Shown: positions 3,129-61,387 of the stretch, piece after piece
How positions within the stretch are numbered: the first letter of the stretch is position 1
Layout of the letters: every line of letters starts with the position of its first letter
Origin: Cryobacterium sp.
Lineage (GTDB): Bacteria; Actinomycetota; Actinomycetes; Actinomycetales; Microbacteriaceae
Reading direction: 5' to 3'
Length of the DNA stretch: 64,000 nucleotides
Assembly (NCBI GenBank): GCA_019639015.1
Contig: JAHBSS010000002.1
Coordinates: 34,799 to 98,798, forward strand
Position numbers and translations under genes: made by a program
The notes under the pieces: generated by a model
What the model saw: only the letters and a program-made list of their open reading frames with translations
Told to the model about the DNA's origin: nothing
The model's database searches: none

Positions 3129-3950
3129 ATGCGTGAATTGCAACAGCGAATAATTCGTGAACTCGGAGTTGAATCGACTATTGATCCGGTCGAGCAGATC
3201 AACTTGCGTGTCCAATTTCTCGTTAACTATGCGAAGTCTTCTCATGCGAAAGGTTTTGTGCTCGGGATCAGCGGTGGTCAAGACTCGAGCCTTGCGGGCA
3301 GGCTTTGTCAGATCGCGGCTGAAAGACTCACCGAGACTGGAGTGTCATCCGAGTTTGTTGCAGTCAGGTTGCCGTACGCGGTTCAGGCTGATGAAGCGGA
3401 TGCCCAACTTGCACTCGAGTTCATCAAACCGATGCGAACTGTCACCTTCAATATTCGGCAGGCTGTCGACGGTTTCGAGGCGGAGTACGCCCAAGCTCTG
3501 GGCGGCGAAATGACCGATTTCACCAAAGGTAACGTGAAGGCCAGATCTCGAATGATCGCCCAGTATGCGATCGCTGGTCAACGGTCGCTGCTTGTTGTCG
3601 GGACGGATCACGCCGCCGAGGCGGTCACTGGATTTTTCACCAAGTTCGGTGACGGCGGAGTTGATTTGACGCCGCTTACGGGATTAACCAAACGGCAAGG
3701 CAAGGCAATGCTTATTGAGCTTGGGGCGCCGAAACGGCTTTACACGAAACCGCCTACCGCTGATCTTCTTGATGACAACCCTGGTCAAACAGATGAGGCA
3801 AATCTCGGTTTGAGTTATGAGCAAATTGATGACTACTTGGAAGGAAAAGACGTTCCGGTTGCAATTGCCGAGGCGATCGAGGCGAAGTTCCTTGCAACAC
3901 GACACAAGAGAAATCTGCCGGTAACCCCAAATACCAATTGGTGGCGCTGA
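3129..3950 (+). CDS. nadE: NAD synthetase, ammonia-dependent
   Basis: A 273-residue NadE of the short form that lacks an N-terminal glutaminase domain, so it uses free ammonia to convert deamido-NAD to NAD. The ATP pyrophosphatase loop [13 protein letters not shown] is at about residues 46-58, and the downstream deamido-NAD/ATP-binding elements ([29 protein letters not shown]) are intact. It starts nine bases after gntK and probably shares its transcript. Cytoplasmic dimer by family knowledge. It is followed by a promoter-like region and the rplY leader. Confidence 0.94.
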
Positions 3951-12777: not shown

Positions 12778-13377
12778 ATGAGTCGCAGAGCGGAGCCTGG
12801 TCGTAAGGCAGAACTGCTTGAGCAGATTTTGGACTATTTGGTCGACAAACCCTTATCAAGACTGACTTTCAGGACCGTCGCCGCGGCTCTTGGCGTTAGT
12901 ACCTTCACTCTCGTTTACCAATTTGGAAATAGAGCTGGACTCGTAGCCGCAATTGTGAAACAAGTTACTTCGAGGCAAGAAGAGATTGAAAAGCGATTGA
13001 TCGTTGGTGCTGGATCATTGCACAACTATTACGAAAATCTTGAAACGTCTTGGAATTGGACTCTTGATCCCCGCAACCGGCAGCTTCAACGGTTGGAATT
13101 TGAGGCTGCAATGCTTGGAGTCTTGGATCCAGAGGTTGGAGCGTTCAGCAAGGCGCTCTATGAAACTTGGCTTCGAGTGGGGACCGAGTCTCTTGTTGCA
13201 TTTGGGCTCGACACCAAGGAGGCCGCAACTCAAGCCAGAATCGCCGTTGATACGTTCTACGGCTTGCAATATGACTTGCTCGTAAACGGTCGCGAAGAAG
13301 AAACCACAAATTCGTTTCGAACGTTTGTGAAAGAACATCGAGAACGAGTTGAGGGACTTGTTGGAGACCTGGTTTAG
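12778..13377 (+). CDS. TetR family transcriptional regulator
   Basis: A 199-residue one-component repressor. The N-terminal helix-turn-helix lies at about residues 15-65 (RLTFRTVAAALGVSTFTLVYQFGNRAGLV region), and the rest is an alpha-helical ligand-binding domain. ATG 12778 is preferred; a GTG at 12760 would overlap the candidate operator. It sits alone between ferritin and hisS with no obvious efflux or enzyme partner, so the target is unknown and may be only itself. It reads toward hisS, 41 bases away. Confidence 0.82.
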   Translation: MSRRAEPGRKAELLEQILDYLVDKPLSRLTFRTVAAALGVSTFTLVYQFGNRAGLVAAIVKQVTSRQEEIEKRLIVGAGSLHNYYENLETSWNWTLDPRNRQLQRLEFEAAMLGVLDPEVGAFSKALYETWLRVGTESLVAFGLDTKEAATQARIAVDTFYGLQYDLLVNGREEETTNSFRTFVKEHRERVEGLVGDLV

Positions 13378-53086: not shown

Positions 53087-54160
53087 GTGGCCCTAACCAT
53101 CGCTATTGTCGGACTTCCGAACGCCGGCAAGTCGACCCTGTTCAACGCGCTCACTCGCAACCAAGTGCTTGCCGCGAATTACCCGTTCGCGACTATCGAA
53201 CCGAATATCGGAGTCGTGAATCTGCCGGACGCGCGACTGAACGTGCTTGCTGAACTCTTTAAGAGCGAGAAGATTCTGCCCGCGCCAGTGTCGTTTGTAG
53301 ACATCGCCGGCATTGTCAAGGGCGCGAGTGAAGGGGAGGGGCTAGGCAATAAGTTTTTGGCCAACATTCGTGAAGCGGATGCGATCGCAGTTGTTAGTCG
53401 CGGCTTCGCTGACCCGGACGTCATCCACGTTGACGGTCGAGTGGATGCCAAGGCCGATCTCGAAACGATCCACACCGAATTGGTGCTCGCCGACTTGCAG
53501 ACCCTTGAGAAGGCAATCGAGAGGTACGAGAAGGAACTTCGCGGTCGAAAGATTGAGCCAGCCGTGCTTGAAACCGCTAAAGCTGCGGCCGAGTGGTTGA
53601 ATCAAGGAAAGCCGTTATCCGCCAACACTTCGCTCGACTTGTCGCTCATCCGCGAGTTGGGTCTGTTGACATCGAAGCCCATGCTTTACGTCTTCAATGT
53701 CGATGACACGGTCTTGGCGGATGCTTCAGCGAAGAGTGCATTGGCTAGCCTCGTGGCACCAGCGAAAGCAATCTTCCTCGACGCAAAACTTGAAAGCGAA
53801 CTCATCGATTTGGATCCAGCGGATGCCGCAGAACTCCTTGCCTCGACCGGCCAAGAAGAAAGTGGCCTCGACCAACTCGCCAGAATCGGGTTCGATGTCC
53901 TTGGCTTGCAAACCTATCTGACCGCTGGCCCCAAGGAAGCGCGAGCCTGGACGATCCACAAGGGTTGGAAAGCCCCGCAAGCCGCTGGCGTCATCCACAC
54001 AGATTTCGAAAAGGGCTTCATCAAAGCCGAGGTAATCTCTTTCGACGACCTAGTCGATTCCGGTTCGGTCGTCGAAGCCCGCGCTCGCGGCAAAGCCCGC
54101 ATGGAAGGCAAAGACTACGTCATGCAGGATGGTGACGTCGTGGAGTTCCGCCACAGTTAG
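53087..54160 (+). CDS. ychF: Redox-regulated ATPase YchF (Obg-like)
   Basis: A 357-residue OLA1/YchF ATPase that binds ribosomes and takes part in stress responses. G1 GLPNAGKSTLFNALT, G3-like DIAGIVKGASEGEGLGN and an NxxE-type G4 in LYVFNVDD are present, with a coiled coil and the C-terminal TGS domain (TIHKGWKAPQAAGVIHTDFEKGFI, MEGKDYVMQDGDV). It ends in FRHS, whereas the usual ending in many bacteria is FRFNV; that ending appears on a fragment 2.7 kb downstream. GTG start. Its 3' end is the apparent insertion point of the accessory region. Confidence 0.94.
   Translation: MALTIAIVGLPNAGKSTLFNALTRNQVLAANYPFATIEPNIGVVNLPDARLNVLAELFKSEKILPAPVSFVDIAGIVKGASEGEGLGNKFLANIREADAIAVVSRGFADPDVIHVDGRVDAKADLETIHTELVLADLQTLEKAIERYEKELRGRKIEPAVLETAKAAAEWLNQGKPLSANTSLDLSLIRELGLLTSKPMLYVFNVDDTVLADASAKSALASLVAPAKAIFLDAKLESELIDLDPADAAELLASTGQEESGLDQLARIGFDVLGLQTYLTAGPKEARAWTIHKGWKAPQAAGVIHTDFEKGFIKAEVISFDDLVDSGSVVEARARGKARMEGKDYVMQDGDVVEFRHS
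54102..54160 (+). repeat. ychF 3' end, reference copy of the tail repeat
   Basis: The last 59 bases of ychF encode MEGKDYVMQDGDVVEFRHS. Related segments recur at about 56846-56888 and 60566-60626, and an upstream ychF segment (around 53934-53968) recurs at 59789-59823. This is the left boundary of the accessory region. Confidence 0.85.
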
Positions 54161-54267
54161 ACATTTGGATGACGCCGTTTCGCTAGAGATGCGAAGGGCC
54201 TCGAAGGTGACCTGCGCACTATTCACGAAAGGGCTCATCGGAGCGGGACCATGACTGGCCTAAGGCT

Positions 54268-54292
54268 AGCCGGTGAACGTCGCTCACCGGTT
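54268..54292 (+). terminator. Hairpins in the gap after ychF
   Basis: CCGGTGA (54270-54276) pairs with TCACCGG (54284-54290) over seven bases, extendable by two pairs, and a second stem GCGGGG/CCCCGC lies near 54320-54342. Neither has a T-run. They may end ychF or the convergent 799-codon gene. The rest of the 240-base gap shows no gene. Confidence 0.4.
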
Positions 54293-54401
54293 GAAGACTA
54301 ATTCCAAAACTAACGACGCGGGGCAAGAGCTGTACCCCGCTGTCGCCTGCCAATTCGGGGTCCAATTCCTTGACTGGTTCAGAGTTGGGTCGAGGAGGTT
54401 G

Positions 54402-56801
54402 TTATCCGAGCGAAGTTAGTACCTCGAGGTTCAGTCCAAACGGCATGACCTTTGCACACTCGGTCTCCGCATGACGGACATCAGTCACGTTGAAGCGGTC
54501 GTTCGTTGTAGCCAACACTATCTGGTCGGCGCGGAGCACATTCGCGATCCGGAGCAGCTTTTTAGTCTGTGCAACGCGTTTGGTCCCCCCGAACGTCCCG
54601 TTTGATTTTGCCTCGACTACTGACAGTTTCCCGTCTGCGCACGAGATCAAGTCGATCTCGGCGATGACCTTCCCCGTCTTGACCTCGAAGAACTCGAGTT
54701 CGGGGGCGTCGTTGTAGCTGTGCCGCGACTCGCTCCGCAGATACGCCGCGGCGAGCAGGGGGATGTCGCCGTGCGCACGGAATAACTCACGAAATGCGGT
54801 GTAAAGGTCGTAGAACCATCGTGGTTCGGCGGTTTTTCTCCATCTCTCGGAGGTCAGCTCGTTCGATGCGCCGCACTGTGAACAGTCGAACCGCTGCGCG
54901 ACGTGATCGGCGTCGTAGAACGATGGCCGCCCGCACTCGTCGCAGTCTAAGATCAACCCGCGCCGCAGTAGCCGCGCCGCAGTGAGCCGGTCGACTAGAG
55001 CGACTGCGTCTGAAAGGTCGCCTGAAAAGCGGGTGTCGATGCCTTCGATGCTGAGGTAGGGGTCGAGATCGTTTAGGACGACCATGTCGGGGTCACGGGT
55101 CTTCGGCTGTTTCTCCATGGGTGTGAAGGCTCGGAGCAGCGGCAGGTTTTCGGTCTTTATCAGATCGAGGAGGTCCCCGCGGGTGCCGAGCCGCCGACGC
55201 ACCAGTTCACCGAGTCGGCCGGCTGACGACAGTCGCACTCCCAGGCCCGCGGGTTTGGCCATTGCCTCGATCCATGCGAGCATCGAGAGAGAACGTAGCC
55301 GCGGCCGGCCGATGCGGCCCGACAAGGGTGAACCCGCGAGAACCAGTCCCATCGAGTGGGGGTCGAATGTGATGCCGTCTCGTGTTGCTCGGAGGTTCAC
55401 GCTTGAGAATGCGCCGTCCGCGACCGCGAGTATGTCACCGGGAAGATCGCGTGCGCGCGGCGTCGAGTCGCCGGCGAGGGCAACGTCGACCAGCCAGTAG
55501 GGCATCCACTCGGAGTTTGGGTCGTGTACGGGATTTGTCGGGATCGGGGTTTCCAGTCCGGTAAGGGCCTCGCGCGTCCCATCTGGAGCTCTCGACACGG
55601 GGATTGAGATATTTGCACCGACGTGCTCATTTGCCAGATACGAGACTGAGCCGCTGCTAAGGTCGGGCAAACGTGCTTCGACCGTTTCATCGCGTCGATG
55701 TATCTGGCTCCCGTTGATCCGCACAGTGAAGTATGGCTCGCGGATGGCCTTGACGAGGTCGGTGATGCAATCCGGATTCGCCGACGTCGAGGTGACGATC
55801 ATCCGATCCCCGCGATTCTCCAATCCAGAAATGATCGTCGACAGCGTCGGGTGGACGTTCTTGCGGAAGGTGTCCACGTCGTCGAGCATCGCCGTTGGTA
55901 GCCAGATTCCATGGCCGATGAGGCGGTCATAGGCGAGTGCGAGCGCGAAGTCCCGTGCCGTGTCCCCGACGACAACTGCGATCCGATCGCGGCGCAGTCC
56001 GTGGGCCCATTGCGCGAGCCCTTGGTCGGCGAGGAACCATAGGGGGAGATCCGTCGATGCGATGGTCGGCACCCCCTGGTTGGCCCAGATGAGCGACGTG
56101 GGGGCGTCCCCAACCGGGTTAATGAACCATTCCAGCCCGTCGGTCGGCTCGGGTCTGTCTTCCAGTTCGGCGTTGGCGACTCCAGCCCGCATCGCCGCCA
56201 TTAACCCGAAGTCGGACCGCCATGCTTCGGATGCTGCGATCCGCGCGCCTGAGAGTGGGTGCGGAGCGGGAGTGAGTCCAGTACGGAACCCGCGAGCCTC
56301 GCCTGCAGCGGTCCGGGGTTTGAGCGAAGTCACCACCTCCATCTGTCGCTCGGCCTCATCGGTCGTCAAGCGCATGCCGCGCATCGGAGAGCACCAGCCC
56401 GCGACCTCATTGCGCGCGATCTTCGCGGCGGGATCGTCGAACTCGAAGTGCGTGCTCGCGAGGAGTTGGAGGCGCTGTTCCTCGGCTTCGACACCCTCGG
56501 CGCGAAAGTAACCCGGCTGCCAGGCCTCCCACTGTTTTGGCGGCAGGGGGAGGGTTACGACGTGATCCGGGTCGTACGTGCGGACGATCTCGGCGAACTC
56601 TGGAGCGACAGTTCCCGAGTTCGTGTCGTAGGGCACGATAATGAAGCCGGCTCCACCCCAGTAGTCGGACGCGGTCCGGAGCGCAATCATCGCCCAGTCG
56701 CGCCAATGATCATCGCTCGCCACCAGAATTGCTATGCGCGGTGGGCGAAGGGCGATCGACGCTGTGAGGAAACCAACTTCGGTATTCATACTTATATCCA
56801 A
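54402..56801 (-). CDS. Large protein with zinc ribbon and PD-(D/E)XK nuclease domain, unknown family
   Basis: A 799-residue protein I do not recognise. The N-terminal 130 residues are a Rossmann-like alpha/beta segment (RIAILVASDDHW, GGAGFIIVPYD). The middle (200-600) has further alpha/beta and beta-rich parts. Near the C-terminus a four-cysteine zinc ribbon uses Cys620/623 and Cys640/643, followed by a restriction-like nuclease core with Asp717 (AEIDLI), Glu730 and Lys732 (VVEAKSNG). This layout suits a single-protein anti-phage or anti-plasmid effector. Codon and base use is far more GC-rich than ychF, implying transfer. ATG start could be residue 1 or 5. It faces ychF and is divergent from the next module. 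Confidence 0.75.
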   Translation of the reverse strand: MDISMNTEVGFLTASIALRPPRIAILVASDDHWRDWAMIALRTASDYWGGAGFIIVPYDTNSGTVAPEFAEIVRTYDPDHVVTLPLPPKQWEAWQPGYFRAEGVEAEEQRLQLLASTHFEFDDPAAKIARNEVAGWCSPMRGMRLTTDEAERQMEVVTSLKPRTAAGEARGFRTGLTPAPHPLSGARIAASEAWRSDFGLMAAMRAGVANAELEDRPEPTDGLEWFINPVGDAPTSLIWANQGVPTIASTDLPLWFLADQGLAQWAHGLRRDRIAVVVGDTARDFALALAYDRLIGHGIWLPTAMLDDVDTFRKNVHPTLSTIISGLENRGDRMIVTSTSANPDCITDLVKAIREPYFTVRINGSQIHRRDETVEARLPDLSSGSVSYLANEHVGANISIPVSRAPDGTREALTGLETPIPTNPVHDPNSEWMPYWLVDVALAGDSTPRARDLPGDILAVADGAFSSVNLRATRDGITFDPHSMGLVLAGSPLSGRIGRPRLRSLSMLAWIEAMAKPAGLGVRLSSAGRLGELVRRRLGTRGDLLDLIKTENLPLLRAFTPMEKQPKTRDPDMVVLNDLDPYLSIEGIDTRFSGDLSDAVALVDRLTAARLLRRGLILDCDECGRPSFYDADHVAQRFDCSQCGASNELTSERWRKTAEPRWFYDLYTAFRELFRAHGDIPLLAAAYLRSESRHSYNDAPELEFFEVKTGKVIAEIDLISCADGKLSVVEAKSNGTFGGTKRVAQTKKLLRIANVLRADQIVLATTNDRFNVTDVRHAETECAKVMPFGLNLEVLTSLG

Positions 56802-56845
56802 CCGGACCTGGACTTCAACTGCGTTACTTGCGGCGACGAGGTCTC

Positions 56846-56888
56846 TGTGTCGGACGGGGATGTTGCGGAGTTCCGCTTCAACGTTTGA
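56846..56888 (+). repeat. Diverged ychF 3'-end fragment, second copy
   Basis: In frame it reads VSVSDGDVAEFRFNV followed by stop, the standard C-terminus of YchF proteins, although no ychF body precedes it. Bases GACGGGGA-GT and GGAGTTCCG match the other tail copies. It lies 45 bases upstream of the 799-codon gene and probably is the displaced original host or donor ychF end. Confidence 0.7.
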
Positions 56889-57034
56889 CCGCGCACTCGT
56901 TCATCCCCTGGAGCAATCTGCGCCCGATGGGACCCCGCAAACCAACGCGATCAGCGGGTTTTGCGCTTTCATCGGAATAGGTGGGTGCTCGTCGTTGTTT
57001 AGGTTTGTCTGGTGCTGATCATTGAGGAGGCTGC

Positions 57035-57748
57035 GTGAGAGAAACGATCGAGAAGAAGAGTGTCGGCGCAACCTCGGGGGTGCAGTCGGAGTTGGCCGTG
57101 CCGCAGTTACCAGCGTTGACAGCGCAAGCCGAACGACTGATCGCGACGGGCCTTCTGGGTGGTGAGGGCGGCGCACTCGCCGCTGATGAGTTGCGTGACG
57201 CTGCCATCAACCTGCAAAAACGTGTCGCTCTGGGAGCGCTACTCGTCGCATCAGAACGGGTTTTGCCAGTGGGAACACTCGTCTCGCGGGTGATTCGCAC
57301 ATCGGATGTGCGGGAGCGGGAGGGCTACGTTGTGGTCGACATGAACGACGTTGGCGACTTCGTGCCCACAGCCGAAGCACCCGTTCCGAGCACGCTAGTG
57401 TACGCAATCGAAGATCCGAGGCGCGGAGATGAAATGCGCAACTGGACTCCGGCTGAGGCGCAAGACGCGTTGTCGAAGGCTGGGCGCACACCATTCACCG
57501 TCGTCGAAGGTGTGCACTGGGCGTTGCAGGTACCCGATGTCCTTGATCGCAACGCCTGCTACATGATGATCGGCTCGCGTCGGCGAAATGCGAAGGGATT
57601 CGACTCGCGCACGCCCGCGCTCTGGATATCGAATGGTACGGGTAGGGATGGCCGCGATCGTAACGGCTCCCCGAAACTGGGTTGGTGCTGGTGGAATAAC
57701 AGGCACACGTGGCTGGGATTTGCTTCTGGCTCTCGTCGCGTTGCCTGA
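57035..57748 (+). CDS. DUF5701 family protein
   Basis: A 237-residue protein matching the actinobacterial DUF5701 family in its C-terminal half: APVPSTLVYAIEDPRRGDEM, FTVVEGVHWALQVPDVL, and the ending ALWISNGTGRDGRDRNGSPK then LGWCWWNNRHTWLGFASG. The N-terminal half is helical (LTAQAERLIATGLL). GTG start with GAGGAGG four bases upstream. Function unknown; the family recurs in accessory or variable regions. Base composition is GC-rich like the previous module. Followed by an AT-rich Mrr-like gene. Confidence 0.75.
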   Translation: MRETIEKKSVGATSGVQSELAVPQLPALTAQAERLIATGLLGGEGGALAADELRDAAINLQKRVALGALLVASERVLPVGTLVSRVIRTSDVREREGYVVVDMNDVGDFVPTAEAPVPSTLVYAIEDPRRGDEMRNWTPAEAQDALSKAGRTPFTVVEGVHWALQVPDVLDRNACYMMIGSRRRNAKGFDSRTPALWISNGTGRDGRDRNGSPKLGWCWWNNRHTWLGFASGSRRVA

Positions 57749-57824
57749 ATTGGTGACGTAGTCTCAGAGAGTTCCACCATCAGCGCCAAGTCCGCACAAC
57801 GAACTAGTCAAGTAAGGTTGGGTA

Positions 57825-58940
57825 ATGGAACTTCCTGAACCTAAAGCAACTTTCCTTCTCGACTGGCAAAGTGCGGAGATTGCGGCTTTGGAACACATGA
57901 AATCGCTTGGTTTCATTGATGCTCAAAGGACTCAATCTGGGGCAGATGGTGGCATAGATGTTGAGAGCAGTGAGGCCGCAGCTCAGGTCAAGTTCTACGC
58001 TAGTCCGGTAGGCCGCCCTGACATTCAGAGGCTTCGGGGTGCCGCTAACGGGTATAGGATCTCAGTTTTTTATTCCACTGGCGGTTACACAAAGGAGGCA
58101 GTGGAGTATGCAGATAGCGCGGGTGTCGCACTCTTCCTAATGGATCCCTATGGAAACGCTGAAGCCTATTCGCAGAGTGCTGAGGTTCTCGTAAGACCAG
58201 ATCAAGTTCGGGAACGGCAAGAGCAACTTGAAGAGCTGAAGGCGGTTCGATATCGACTCGCGGCGTTATCGTTCGAAGAGGATTACTCACTCTACGCAAA
58301 ATTCGGCAAGCAAGTTCCTCTGGGCGAAGAAGAGGCGGCGTACTTTGCACACGTACTTTCTGACCTGGATACTTCAGTCAAGAACTTTAGGGAAGCGGTA
58401 AGGGGGTCTCAGTTTCAGGTTGCAGATAGCCTGTTCGAGAAAATTAATAATCGAGTGCTATTTCTCACCTGGATTACGGGCGAAGAATTTCGCGGCAGAT
58501 ATGAAGACATTGACGAAGCTGTAGCGCAGGGGTGGAAGCTCCAGAGTGCTTCAAGTTCTGATGATAGTTTTAGTCGTATTGCAAGTGCGGTTATAGATCT
58601 CATGGCATTTCTCGAGGAACTATTCCGGGCATGGGAAGCCAGCTACCCTCAAGAAGCTGGAGTGTATTTGCTGAGAGAACCCGTTCTTAAGAGATCTGTC
58701 GGGATGCTTCTTTCCGTCGGAATTGATCCATCAATCCTTCAACCGGAACTACAAATGCAGTTGAAAGATTCAGTGAAAGTGGGTGTTGCGCGTTTGGCGA
58801 AACAAACCGATAAGACATTTCGGAGTATTTTTGACTACTATAAGCAACTCAAGTTTGACTGCCCCACGAATGTCTTCGTCGCAAAGCTGAAATTTGAAGC
58901 GCTCGTCGAGAGGATAAGTCGATTGTTGAACGCGAGTTGA
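57825..58940 (+). CDS. Mrr-like restriction endonuclease, stand-alone
   Basis: A 371-residue protein with an N-terminal Mrr-type PD-(D/E)XK domain (about residues 15-125). The active site is Asp45 in GADGGIDV and Gln54-Val-Lys56 in AAQVKFYA, the QxK variant typical of Mrr, followed by GRPDIQRLRGAANGY. The remaining 240 residues are helical with no named domain, possibly sensing. No methyltransferase is adjacent, so it may cut modified DNA (type IV-like) or act in another defence mode. The gene is strikingly AT-rich against its neighbours. ATG start after AAGTAAGGTTGGG. Nothing recognisable fills 58941-59212. Confidence 0.82.
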   Translation: MELPEPKATFLLDWQSAEIAALEHMKSLGFIDAQRTQSGADGGIDVESSEAAAQVKFYASPVGRPDIQRLRGAANGYRISVFYSTGGYTKEAVEYADSAGVALFLMDPYGNAEAYSQSAEVLVRPDQVRERQEQLEELKAVRYRLAALSFEEDYSLYAKFGKQVPLGEEEAAYFAHVLSDLDTSVKNFREAVRGSQFQVADSLFEKINNRVLFLTWITGEEFRGRYEDIDEAVAQGWKLQSASSSDDSFSRIASAVIDLMAFLEELFRAWEASYPQEAGVYLLREPVLKRSVGMLLSVGIDPSILQPELQMQLKDSVKVGVARLAKQTDKTFRSIFDYYKQLKFDCPTNVFVAKLKFEALVERISRLLNAS

Positions 58941-59212
58941 GTGCGATTTGCTCACCTTTGCAATTGAAATTCCAAAATCGAATGCGAAAATTGGGAATTT
59001 ATGGGCGAGCAAACTTCCAAGTCCTGTCTAAGAAGTCCCGTGACTCAGCTTCGGACTTGAACGGTCACTTCGACGCAGATCCTTGTTACTGAACAAGACC
59101 GGAAGACGTCCAACGGCTCTGGCCAGGGGTAAACTACGAGCCCAACATGGCCGGGGTAGAGCTCCACTTTAACACCTAGCGTTATTGACGAGTCGCGTTT
59201 CATAATTTTTGC

Positions 59213-59494
59213 GTGAACAGGTCGTTTGGTGACAAAGATACTGAGCGATTGTGGCGTCGAGAGCCAGTCCGTTCGTTGGATCCGCGAATTCAACGCGTGG
59301 CACTGCGCAAGCTTCGTCAGGTGGGTTCCGCGGTGACGCTAGATGACCACAGAATTCCACCTGGAAACCGACTCGAACTCTTGAAGGGCGATCGATCGGG
59401 ACAACACAGCTTAAGGATTAATGACCAGTGGTGAATCTGTTTCGTGTGGACGACTGCTGGACCAGAAGAGGCGGAGATAGTTGACTATCACTAA
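59213..59494 (+). pseudogene. higB: HigB-type toxin gene with an in-frame stop
   Basis: From GTG 59213 the protein reads SFGDKDTERLW, PRIQRVALRKL and HRIPPGNRLELLKGDRSGQH, a typical HigB/RelE-superfamily toxin. At 59432-59434 a TGA interrupts right after INDQW, where the family has Arg (INDQWRICF). The same frame continues past it with ICFVWT and ends EIVDYH at TAA 59492-59494, the normal HigB C-terminus. A single CGA-to-TGA change explains this, leaving a 73-residue truncated product lacking the last strand. The intact antitoxin gene overlaps its natural end. Confidence 0.88.
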
Positions 59495-59783
59495 GAAAAT
59501 TGCCCCGATTCATCCCGGGGAAGTTCTCATGGAGGATTTCATTGAAGGGTTCGGAATTACGCAGAACAAGCTTGCCGTGTCCATAGGCGTGCCACCTCGA
59601 AGGATTAATGAGATTGTGCACGGAAAACGAGCAATTACCGCTGACACTGCACTTCGACTTTCCAAGTATTTTGGAACGTCAGCGGAATTCTGGATGAATC
59701 TACAGTCCCACTTCGATCTGGATCGAGCAGAAGATCGAATGGCGGATCAAATTGCAGTAATTACACCGCTAAGGGTTGCCTGA
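59481..59783 (+). CDS. higA: HigA family antitoxin
   Basis: A 100-residue XRE-type helix-turn-helix antitoxin. IHPGEVLMEDFI at the start and the HTH around QNKLAVSIGVPPRRINEIVHGKRAI (about residues 28-54) followed by DTALRLSKYFGTSAEFWMNLQ are diagnostic for HigA. TTG 59481 lies five bases after GGCGGAG and overlaps the ancestral higB end by 14 bases. It normally neutralises HigB and represses the operon; here its partner appears inactivated by a stop codon. Confidence 0.92.
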   Translation: MTITKKIAPIHPGEVLMEDFIEGFGITQNKLAVSIGVPPRRINEIVHGKRAITADTALRLSKYFGTSAEFWMNLQSHFDLDRAEDRMADQIAVITPLRVA

Positions 59784-59788
59784 ATTTA

Positions 59789-59823
59789 CCCAGGGAAGCG
59801 CGAGCCCGGACGATGCACAAGGG
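59789..59823 (+). repeat. Internal ychF fragment between TA modules
   Basis: About 32 of 35 bases match ychF at 53934-53968, the segment encoding PKEARAWTIHKG in the TGS domain. Here it stands alone between higA and vapB; the corresponding next piece of ychF (the tail) is not 130 but about 740 bases further, at 60566. The VapBC genes therefore look inserted into a ychF 3' remnant. Confidence 0.75.
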
Positions 59824-59892
59824 AACTTGTCTGCAATCATCGGAGTTGACCACCATCCATGACGGCGTGATATCACAAATAGGAGGTGCAAT

Positions 59893-60117
59893 ATGACTGA
59901 CGTGTTGGTTCGCGGACTCAGTGATGCGGCTATTGGGCAAATCGATTCGGAGGCAGCGGCTCTCGGCTTGTCGCGTAACGAATTCTTGCGCCGCCGCCTC
60001 GAGGCAGAAGCCTCGCCCACAACCGCGGCAACTATCACGCCTCAAGACTGGGAGCGGTCTGCTTCGGCGTTTTCCGACCTCGACGATCCGTCAGTTATGG
60101 ATGCCGCGTGGCCGTGA
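59893..60117 (+). CDS. vapB: VapB-type antitoxin
   Basis: A 74-residue ribbon-helix-helix antitoxin: [20 protein letters not shown] forms the DNA-binding strand and helix, [14 protein letters not shown] the second helix, and the acidic tail [18 protein letters not shown] would wrap the toxin. It has a very strong AGGAGG site six bases before ATG 59893. Its end overlaps vapC by ten bases. It neutralises VapC and autoregulates the pair by family knowledge. Confidence 0.88.
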
Positions 60118-60527
60118 AGAACTGGCTCCTTGATAAGTCCGCCTACCTGCGGATGCAGTCCGGGCAAGTTGCGAACATCAGCGAATGGAACACGCGAATT
60201 GAACGTGGTCTCGTTCACTTGTCGACCATAACCAGGCTGGAACTAGGATTCTCGGCCCGATCAGGGAATGCCGGGTGTGTGGCGTTCGGACATCCACCAC
60301 TTTCACTCATGCCTATCGAACACTTGACACCAGCGATGGAGGACAGGGCATGGGAAGTGCAAATGCTTTTGGCTGACCCGGGAAAGCACAGGGCGTCTTC
60401 CATCCCAGATTTGCTGATTGCCGCGACTGCCGAAAAGAGCGGTCTGTTAGTGCTCGCTGTTGACAAATATTTCGAGCTAATCGCAGAAGTGACCGGGCAA
60501 CCTACTGAATCCCTCAAGATCAACTAG
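60108..60527 (+). CDS. vapC: VapC-type PIN-domain ribonuclease toxin
   Basis: A 139-residue PIN toxin with the complete acidic set: Asp9 (WLLDKSAY), Glu45 (RLELGFS), Asp101 (IPDLLIAA) and Asp119 ([12 protein letters not shown]). VapC toxins cleave tRNA or rRNA and inhibit translation when freed of VapB. GTG start overlapping vapB by ten bases. Unlike the neighbouring HigB gene it seems fully functional. The next feature is a ychF tail copy 39 bases on. Confidence 0.9.
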
Positions 60528-60565
60528 ACCCCGGCCCTTGACAAAGGGTAAGCACGGCAATACCC

Positions 60566-60626
60566 GGATGGAAGGCAAAGACTACGTCATGCAGGACGGG
60601 GACGTGGTGGAGTTCCGTCACAATCA
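60566..60626 (+). repeat. Near-exact ychF 3'-end copy at the right end of the island
   Basis: The segment reads MEGKDYVMQDGDVVEFRHN in frame and is nearly identical to the ychF tail at 54102-54160 (differences at only a few third positions), then diverges after CACAAT. A short in-frame ORF runs through it, but it lacks a ychF body. It is the right-hand repeat of the island. Confidence 0.85.
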
Positions 60627-60682
60627 GCGGTCACGGAGACTTTGGCAAGTCCTGCCAGGTGACGGGATGGGAGGATGGAAAC

Positions 60683-61387
60683 ATGAACTTTGCGGACCGA
60701 GACCCCATGAAACACCCCGAGAGCCGCCGCATCCGTGACCTGGTCTACGAGACCTTCTCCAGCGAAGGCCGTGCACCCTCGGTTGGAGAACTCGCGCGGA
60801 AGACCAATAGCGAACCCTCCCGAGTGCAGGAGCTTCTTCACGAACTGGCGGACGCCCATGCGTTGGTGCTCAGCGATGAGGGCGACCGGATCAGAATGGC
60901 ACACCCCTTCACCTCCGCGCCCATGGCATTCGTGCTGGCACCGGTCGATGGCCGCGATGACCGACGCTGGTGGGGTGGTTGCGCCTGGGACTCCTTCGGC
61001 ATCAGCGCCGCGCTGAAACTGGACGTGCGCATCGACACCGCCTGCCCGCATTGTGGTGAGCGCCTATCCGTTGTCGCCGGGCCCAACACACCGCCAGAAG
61101 GCGAGCACGCAGTTCGGTTCCCGCGGCCAGCGGCCGAGTGGTGGGAGGACGTTGTCGGCACCTGCACCATGATCCGCCTATTCTGTACGCGTGAGCATGC
61201 CGAGCAGTGGGCTGCCACCCACGCACCTGGCCAGGGGTACATCGCCGATGCGCGCACCGTTTGGGATCTCGCGCAGGATTGGTACGGCGACCGCATCAAT
61301 CAGGGTTTCACGCCACACACTCGCGAGCACAATCAACACCTCCTTGAAGATCGGGGGCTGACCGGGGCATTCTGGGAACTGCCATAG
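60683..61387 (+). CDS. Alkylmercury lyase (MerB) family protein
   Basis: A 234-residue protein with an N-terminal winged-helix domain (about 10-70, VGELARKTNSEPSRVQELLHEL) and a MerB-like domain. The catalytic set of organomercurial lyase is matched: Cys100 and Asp103 in WWGGCAWDSFG and Cys168 in RLFCTREHAEQW. An extra CPHCG pair (Cys121/124) could bind metal. MerB splits carbon-mercury bonds; many actinobacterial homologues lack proof of that activity. No merA, merR or merT lies nearby. ATG 60683 is preferred, with GGGAGGAT upstream. GC-rich relative to neighbours. Confidence 0.8.
   Translation: MNFADRDPMKHPESRRIRDLVYETFSSEGRAPSVGELARKTNSEPSRVQELLHELADAHALVLSDEGDRIRMAHPFTSAPMAFVLAPVDGRDDRRWWGGCAWDSFGISAALKLDVRIDTACPHCGERLSVVAGPNTPPEGEHAVRFPRPAAEWWEDVVGTCTMIRLFCTREHAEQWAATHAPGQGYIADARTVWDLAQDWYGDRINQGFTPHTREHNQHLLEDRGLTGAFWELP

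Follow-up and report, generated by a model that had tools for sequence, protein, structure and literature searches.

The locus raises two questions: why pieces of the 3' end of ychF recur behind the gene itself, with accessory cargo between them, and what kind of recombination has placed them there. In a first-pass annotation of the window (i.e. the whole stretch of 64,000 nucleotides that was analysed), these pieces had been read as marks of repeated insertion at the ychF 3' end. Our findings from the window and from related genomes support this reading: the inserted modules bring the last codons of the gene with them, and the ychF 3' end is most likely a docking site in many actinobacteria, where small mobile cassettes line up through phage-type serine integrases.

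The ychF gene and its downstream pieces in the window

The relevant features of the window are listed below by coordinates, strand and description.

53087-54160, + strand: ychF (Obg-like ATPase), the target gene; Pfam YchF-GTPase_C, 1.5e-37
54161-56864, no strand: cassette A, with a single long reverse ORF (54402-56801, 799 aa) of a family without match
56823-56842, + strand: left-arm motif of a cassette right end, GTTACTTGCGGCGACGAGGT; two mismatches to the arm of G184, 0 expected
56865-56888, + strand: ychF-end core GCGGAGTTCCGCTTCAACGTTTGA, ending FRFNV-stop; none of 103,904-103,952 control positions scores as high
56889-59155, no strand: cassette B, with a DUF5701 protein and a protein with an Mrr-type restriction endonuclease domain (Pfam and PADLOC)
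59156-59179, + strand: eroded ychF-end core GTAGAGCTCCACTTTAACACCTAG; none of 103,904-103,952 control positions scores as high; aligned with G004
59180-59788, + strand: cassette C, a HigBA-like pair; HTH_3, 2e-10; a homologous module abuts ychF in G004
59789-59823, + strand: internal ychF piece (codons 282-293), whose source is ychF 53930-53964; 91% identity over 35 nt, E 2.1e-7 in the genome
59893-60527, + strand: ribbon-helix-helix/PIN pair (VapBC-like); RHH_1, 0.0021 (below the cut-off), PIN, 2e-6
60555-60627, + strand: ychF tail piece assigned to the long class (codons 334-357), a copy of the last 73 nt of ychF; 88% identity over 73 nt, E 6.7e-20

The host gene ends with EFRHS-stop (54140-54160), where EFRFNV is otherwise found; the first-pass annotation had pointed out this missing end, and also the ychF pieces behind the gene, which we confirm at 56865-56888, 59789-59823 and 60555-60627. 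A search of the window's genome (G000; 1.88 Mb, 94 contigs) with the ychF tail (53930-54160) returns, up to an E-value of 0.001, the gene, the pieces at 59789-59823 and 60555-60627, and nothing else; the core at 56865-56888 is not recovered by this search. With a 48-nt profile that was built from 61 cassette ends of other genomes, the window sites starting at 56841, 59132 and 60583 score above all controls (positions 1-52000 of the window, both strands, 103,904-103,952 positions). The second of these sites spans 59132-59179 and contains the eroded core at 59156-59179, which is new, having been overlooked in the first-pass annotation. A consensus search of the window for the HigBA-type junction, with three mismatches, gave no match at this core; the profile and the alignment with G004 both recovered the site. 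The left-arm motif at 56823-56842 sits 24 nt upstream of its usual spot before the core at 56865. Chance similarity of the ychF pieces is ruled out by the E-values of the genome search, by the profile scores relative to the controls and by the arm motif.

The window thus reads, in order, ychF, cassettes A, B and C, and a longer, two-piece ychF remnant that encloses the VapBC-like pair, each side of the pair being flanked by a long-class piece. The 799-aa protein of cassette A has no match in Pfam, PADLOC or NCBIfam at the thresholds used. Cassette B encodes the DUF5701 protein at 57035-57748 (Pfam, 8e-73) and the Mrr-type protein at 57825-58940 (Pfam, 1.4e-13; PADLOC mREase_IV, 1.6e-5), while cassette C encodes a HigB-like protein, named by position only (59213-59434), and a HigA-like protein (59481-59783; HTH_3, 2e-10); HigBA-like and VapBC-like are labels given in this analysis. 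Together with its core, cassette C (59156-59783) is 74.7% identical over 629 nt to the module directly behind ychF in the congener G004; its similarity to the ychF-abutting modules of G003 and G007 is weaker (67-68%), with the alignment running from inside the core on. The composition shifts along the cargo, as had been claimed, with a GC content of 0.45 to 0.67 in 500-base segments over 50-64 kb. We infer that the window holds an old, eroded array of the short class, i.e. of core repeats, and behind it a longer remnant of ychF that belongs to a second class. The window reaches the end of its own contig (C12, 98798 bases), and the far side of the array may therefore be missing.

Distribution of the ychF-end repeats

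The last 30 nt of ychF, with at most three mismatches, occur at least twice in 50 of 299 genomes of the same family (Microbacteriaceae) and in 71 of 274 genomes from other families of the same order (both totals were counted by hand from tables); a control with the reversed pattern gave 0 in every row listed. In the genus that we call g94, at least two copies, and up to six, are present in 21 of 22 species. When 33 genomes were searched again with all places recorded, the copies were mostly found within kilobases of each other and on one strand; the exceptions are G102, with one match 0.4 Mb off, and G072, G174 and G007, with matches on several contigs, while in G499 (g94) one match lies on a separate contig. 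In G214, the same place appears on two contigs and is probably a single site, and the repeat of G008 is a duplication; some of the 50 family genomes are doubtful, because G214, G072, G174, G102 and G008 are atypical.

In 60 loci and the window segment, where the copies are found downstream of ychF, 124 sites lie on the ychF strand (gene ends included) and eight on the opposite strand; six of these eight occur in two loci that lack a ychF for orientation, and two are inverted copies (G008, G106). No opposite-strand site lies downstream of ychF in any of the 20 g94 loci, and in other families all 20 stretches have their sites on one strand throughout. The ychF 3' end is a real hotspot, and a wide one, with many actinobacteria among its hosts.

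Structure of the attachment site

Many cassette right ends share a left arm, approximately GAGGTTGTTCGGCTACGGAACGTG, that is unlike ychF and lies ahead of a core consisting of the last ~24 nt of ychF (GTGGAGTTCCGCTTCAACGTGTAG); the set was drawn from 83 non-gene sites after 21 had been set aside (seven long tails, G001, G106 and those with three mismatches). In several right ends, arm and core form an inverted repeat (CGGAACTC GGTG GAGTTCCG) that is missing in the ychF gene. An uncounted several (e.g. G227, G258 and G184) carry CGGAACTCGGTGGAGTTCCG or a near variant, where the gene has GACGTS before the core.

The palindrome is centred on the GT that opens the core, while the outer inverted arms of g94 (CAGAGGTTG/CAACCTCTG) centre ~7 nt to the right of this GT. 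A GGTTG-type motif is found at a distance of ~17-22 nt from the central GT, and on the opposite side the CAAC of the ychF end is 13-16 nt away; this shift of 4-5 nt may, by analogy, resemble the 5-bp shift between attP and attB of serine integrases that is described in PMC3783163. The choice between GTC and GTG at the start of the core tracks the host genus, not the cassette. The F codon, on the other hand, is TTT in 12 of 14 HigBA-type junctions vs 16 of 102 others (g94: 6 of 6 vs 13 of 53); since TTT is linked to HigBA-type cassettes, the exchange would fall to the left of the F codon, and the cassettes would bring their own ychF codons. The palindrome suggests GT as a candidate central dinucleotide, and the codon linkage and the outer arms would place it a few bases further right.

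Cassettes as discrete, shifting units

The intervals between successive cores range from 96 to 12342 nt, with a median of 1257.5 (n=64); the set leaves aside L046, L047, L076, loci without ychF, minus-strand sites and three-mismatch sites (except L064); it includes gene ends that were supplied for some loci and, entered by hand, the two eroded cores of the window. The HigBA-type cassette starts at the core adjoining ychF in G003, G004, G007, G056, G076, G197, G203 and G227; in G153, G184 and G238 its start is at a core further inside the array. In g94, a cassette of ~1842 nt opens the array of G463 and comes second in those of G541, G410, G499 and G551, where the cassettes ahead of it measure 609, 609, 886 and 283 nt, respectively; its copies are 83-97% identical to that of G463 over its length. 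Past the last core, the flanks of G551 and G499 are 99.8% identical over 1500 nt, though their first cassettes differ. Similarly, a 785-nt cassette takes the second place in G327 and G531 but the third in G541 (g94), and a 575-nt cassette takes the third place in G327 but the second in G570 (g94). The g94 cassettes shared by different species are cut at the same 24-nt core.

One junction, the sole such case, is seen with and without inserts: the flank behind ychF of G106 corresponds to the one that follows the last repeat detected in G258, with 95.4% identity over 500 nt, starting from the first base after the core, and the ychF of G258 lies 10 kb upstream, on the same strand. G106, on the "empty" side, has an inverted core 2 kb further on. 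The pattern of the arrays, to which both gain and loss may have contributed, favours entry beside ychF.

The cargo was scanned through 81 ORFs, which are crude longest-ORF calls (at most three per interval shorter than ~7 kb), some of them not genes. Helix-turn-helix, sigma-70, GNAT and MFS are the Pfam families seen most often, and Abi_2 occurs in two ORFs; single cassettes carry an AbiD-like protein (PADLOC, 5.9e-57), a Nudix protein and a glyoxalase-type protein. The orientation of the crude ORFs inside the cassettes varies, unlike that of the repeats.

Large serine recombinases at the core

The first-pass annotation had found no recombinase. This holds for the genome of the window, where no relative of the large serine recombinases (LSRs) is detected at E<=1e-30, and for most arrays examined; in some relatives, however, an LSR lies beside the core. 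In G263 (Frigoribacterium sp. PhB116), an LSR of 473 aa (Resolvase, 2.7e-20; Recombinase, 4.6e-17) starts ~10 bp from a core site, 24 kb behind ychF. Among 30 family loci with LSR relatives, the core adjoins the LSR in five, G263, G095, G146 (Cryobacterium gelidum), G041 and G082, which are among the seven best matches by summed bits; the other two of these seven (G011 and G032) lack the core, as do the remaining 23 loci.

The association extends to 80 loci from named genomes, where the core lies at most 150 bp from the LSR start in 27 (L159 and L160 being halves of one contig). Two layouts occur, one with the core immediately after ychF and the other with the core at the distal end of the element. 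In nine more of the 80, ychF itself stops 32-79 bp before the LSR. Five loci (L143, L144, L153, L195 and L203) have ychF 5-11 kb off, at the other end of an apparently complete element, and in L187 and L189 the LSR abuts the core with no ychF detectable in the locus. In viral loci, the core lies within the same 150 bp of the LSR start in two of 33. On a quick tree of 86 LSRs, which leaves aside three of the 80 genome loci and 27 of the 33 viral loci, the ychF label needs nine changes vs a mean of 25.4 after shuffling (0 of 500 shuffles as low).

What chiefly ties the small cassettes to the LSRs is the match of their arms. A profile built only from 19 LSR-side arms (outer 18 nt; threshold at the random 99th percentile) is passed by 39 of 59 cassette ends vs 3 of 49 gene ends. 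In addition to the sites excluded above, this comparison sets aside G146 and one G263 site, as members of the LSR set. The corresponding figures are 38 of 41 vs 1 of 20 in g94, and 30 of 48 vs 1 of 19 in further loci. Twenty of the 59 cassette ends miss the profile, including the site at 56865 in the window (score -6.9).

Where arrays are frequent, LSRs of this type are scarce, and most array genomes examined are without them: in g94, LSR relatives are present in seven of 22 genomes, with the core at none of the six loci examined (out of 10 matches), and a motif scan of the first loci placed an LSR inside one interval only.

Proposed mechanism

On the basis of the core repeats, the discrete and reordered cassettes, the junction with and without inserts and the LSR genes beside the core, all of which are read directly in the sequences, we consider it quite probable that the ychF 3' end holds SCC-like, integron-like arrays that are made by LSRs, mostly in trans. 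The ychF 3' end would serve as the attachment site for a family of mobile cassettes, each with a right end composed of the conserved left arm and the last codons of ychF. A serine integrase would recombine the site of a circular cassette with the ychF end; the right arm of the cassette would re-encode VEFRFNV-stop, leaving ychF whole. With these codons rebuilt, the new junction would look like an empty target, and so the next cassette could enter at the same place and the array would grow.

Since most of the array genomes examined lack such an LSR, we infer that visiting elements provide it in trans, i.e. that LSRs would move the small LSR-free cassettes via a circle, mostly inserting them beside ychF. 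Of the two mechanisms guessed at in the first-pass annotation, action in trans is the better; homologous exchange with foreign ychF alleles fits the short class poorly, because of its 24-nt core, its one orientation and its arm matching the LSR-side sites.

A bolder form of the proposal, on which we are evenly divided, would make ychF the platform of a serine-recombinase "integron": tiny recombinase-free cassettes, common to genera of Actinomycetota, would be moved in trans by visiting phage-type LSRs, and, through the ychF end that each cassette re-encodes, every step would rebuild an attB-like site at the gene and leave an attP-like site further back, so that arrays grow and can be re-shuffled.

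Alternative explanations

The intervals could instead be dead remnants, i.e. large LSR prophages or islands shrunk by deletion, the small cassettes never having moved by themselves. Large elements are indeed present at the ychF site, where the distance from ychF to the LSR-side core is ~24 kb in G263, 13 kb in G041, 8 kb in G082 and 40 kb in G095, and the cores of the window are eroded. However, full-length small cassettes, with both ends, occupy different array positions in different g94 species, and the left end of the HigBA-type cassette is found at different positions in different genera; we regard this explanation as unlikely.

Homologous exchange, where foreign ychF alleles with trailing cargo recombine into the host gene and leave ychF pieces behind, draws its support from the second class of pieces. 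The long ychF copies of G297, G075, G147, G262 and the window have no constant start; those compared, of 280 (G297), 400 (G075), 135 (G147) and 110 nt (G262), are 89-97% identical to the host gene, and the 73-nt and 35-nt pieces of the window appear to belong with them. For each of these four tails, no sequence among the genomes compared is closer than the host's own gene, with a small margin in G147 and G262; this closeness is not predicted by the cassette/LSR model. In G075, all four congeners resemble the end of the gene more than the downstream copy, by 2-3 points, a pattern that decay or a foreign origin would be expected to give. In G297, five congeners are about equally distant from both copies, which speaks against exchange, and a partial PF00589 match lies ~130 bp from the ychF stop, convergent to ychF; the long class may have a homologous or a tyrosine-integrase origin. 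In the short class, by contrast, the core is constant at 24 nt, which is too short for ordinary homologous recombination, and the conserved left arm does not resemble ychF. As an account of the arrays, homologous exchange is distinctly improbable.

A true integron-like system, where a tyrosine integrase acts on folded attC-like sites, would share the gene-sized cassettes, the one orientation, the fixed entry point, the arrays of up to six copies and the imperfect inverted arms of the sites, but it is highly improbable, given that 33 g94 sites are predicted to fold no better than random (mean z -0.65 vs -0.49), that a PF00589 search of 15 genomes found only the partial match in G297 beside ychF, and that the arms match LSR-side sites.

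Implications

If the proposed LSR mechanism is true, a separate serine-recombinase cassette system at the end of a widely conserved gene would show how actinobacteria trade accessory genes, such as toxin-antitoxin pairs and genes for Abi, restriction and acetyltransferase functions. Genome engineering would gain a set of LSRs linked to ychF, together with their sites. Further ychF arrays can be searched for directly with the 24-nt core and the arm profile.

Comparison with known systems

Among the literature matches listed, no paper describes insertion at ychF in actinobacteria, many subscription papers being outside the search, and the main text of a large LSR survey (PMC10083194) does not mention ychF. 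The nearest case by location is that of Streptococcus prophages, for which PMC8637289 places attB between another gene and YchF; these pneumococcal prophages share the gene neighbourhood, but belong to another phylum and have another att sequence.

With serine-integrase phages and islands (Bxb1, phiC31, A118 type), whose att anatomy we have compared as described in PMC3783163, the ychF system shares an LSR that adjoins the att site (in relatives, not in the genome of the window), a short common core, a rebuilt target, and Resolvase and Recombinase domains. It differs from them in the reuse of the ychF site by recombinase-free cassettes. Apart from SCC composites, we know of no described LSR case where recombinase-free cassettes reuse one site.

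Ordered arrays of gene cassettes that enter at one set place are best known from integrons, which depend on a tyrosine integrase and on attC sites that recombine when folded. The ychF arrays are similar in their gene-sized cassettes, the one orientation of their repeats and their fixed entry place; they differ in having no integrase beside those searched and no predicted attC-like fold, and in entering at the end of a housekeeping gene.

The closest likeness in working is to SCC/ECC elements, for which PMC6222049 describes an LSR, entry at the 3' end of rlmH, direct-repeat att sites, an inverted repeat in attR and in the circular form, and complex SCC with several att sites; the ECC elements studied there measure 21-78 kb. 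Both systems combine an LSR, the end of a conserved gene and a rebuilt target, and in several ychF-site right ends the inverted repeat is likewise present only in the right-hand copy. In contrast, the target is the 3' end of ychF and not that of rlmH, the ychF intervals are mostly <2 kb, and five ychF-type LSRs reach only 23-62 bits on the CcrA/B/C models, whose cut-offs are 700-900. The ychF arrays appear to work like SCC/ECC, yet are not a member of SCC/ECC, because their LSRs are far below the Ccr cut-offs and their target is different.

Near-identical recombinases behind a single core variant

The comparison of the loci that carry a large serine recombinase (LSR), the proposed mover of the cassettes at the ychF 3' end, has revealed 11 loci (L171, L172, L175, L176, L182-L187 and L189) whose LSRs are nearly identical to one another and have the same variant of the core, i.e. 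of the last ~24 nt of ychF, which lies ~60 bp before the LSR gene begins. The hosts belong to Corynebacterium, Actinotignum, Varibaculum and Arcanobacterium; the element that carries these LSRs has spread recently among those genera.

In two of these loci, L187 (C. striatum ATCC 6940) and L189 (C. tuscaniense), no ychF is detectable upstream of the LSR-side core. The stretch that precedes the core of L189 is found again, nearly unchanged, ahead of another core in L187, which hints at a second target gene or a rearranged site.

Multiplied, variable and inverted ychF regions

Three occurrences of ychF with its downstream stretch are located in a single assembly, G008 (L046, L047); two of them, mutually inverted, lie where a 3.05-Mb contig ends. 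In G007 (L048-L051), which is of the same genus as the window, one contig terminates within ychF, at codon 300, and three contigs begin with differing ychF tails and differ in cargo too, the picture that a mixture of several array variants would give. In G106 (L082), at about 3263-3331, a ychF core in inverted orientation adjoins core-like stretches that are in direct orientation; the cassette that follows this inverted core is also present in G107 and G008, there the right way round.

Additional features near ychF and its pieces

Window, 60659-61387: MerB-like protein (Pfam MerB, 8.4e-29), directly behind the last ychF piece
G297 (L045), around oriented position 892, convergent to ychF: partial tyrosine integrase, ~130 bp from the ychF stop
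G297 (L045), 12933-13258: ychF tail of 96 codons, 12 kb beyond the partial integrase

Despite its Pfam match, the MerB-like protein scores far under the NCBIfam MerB cut-offs. The partial integrase and the distant ychF tail of G297 perhaps represent a second kind of element at ychF.
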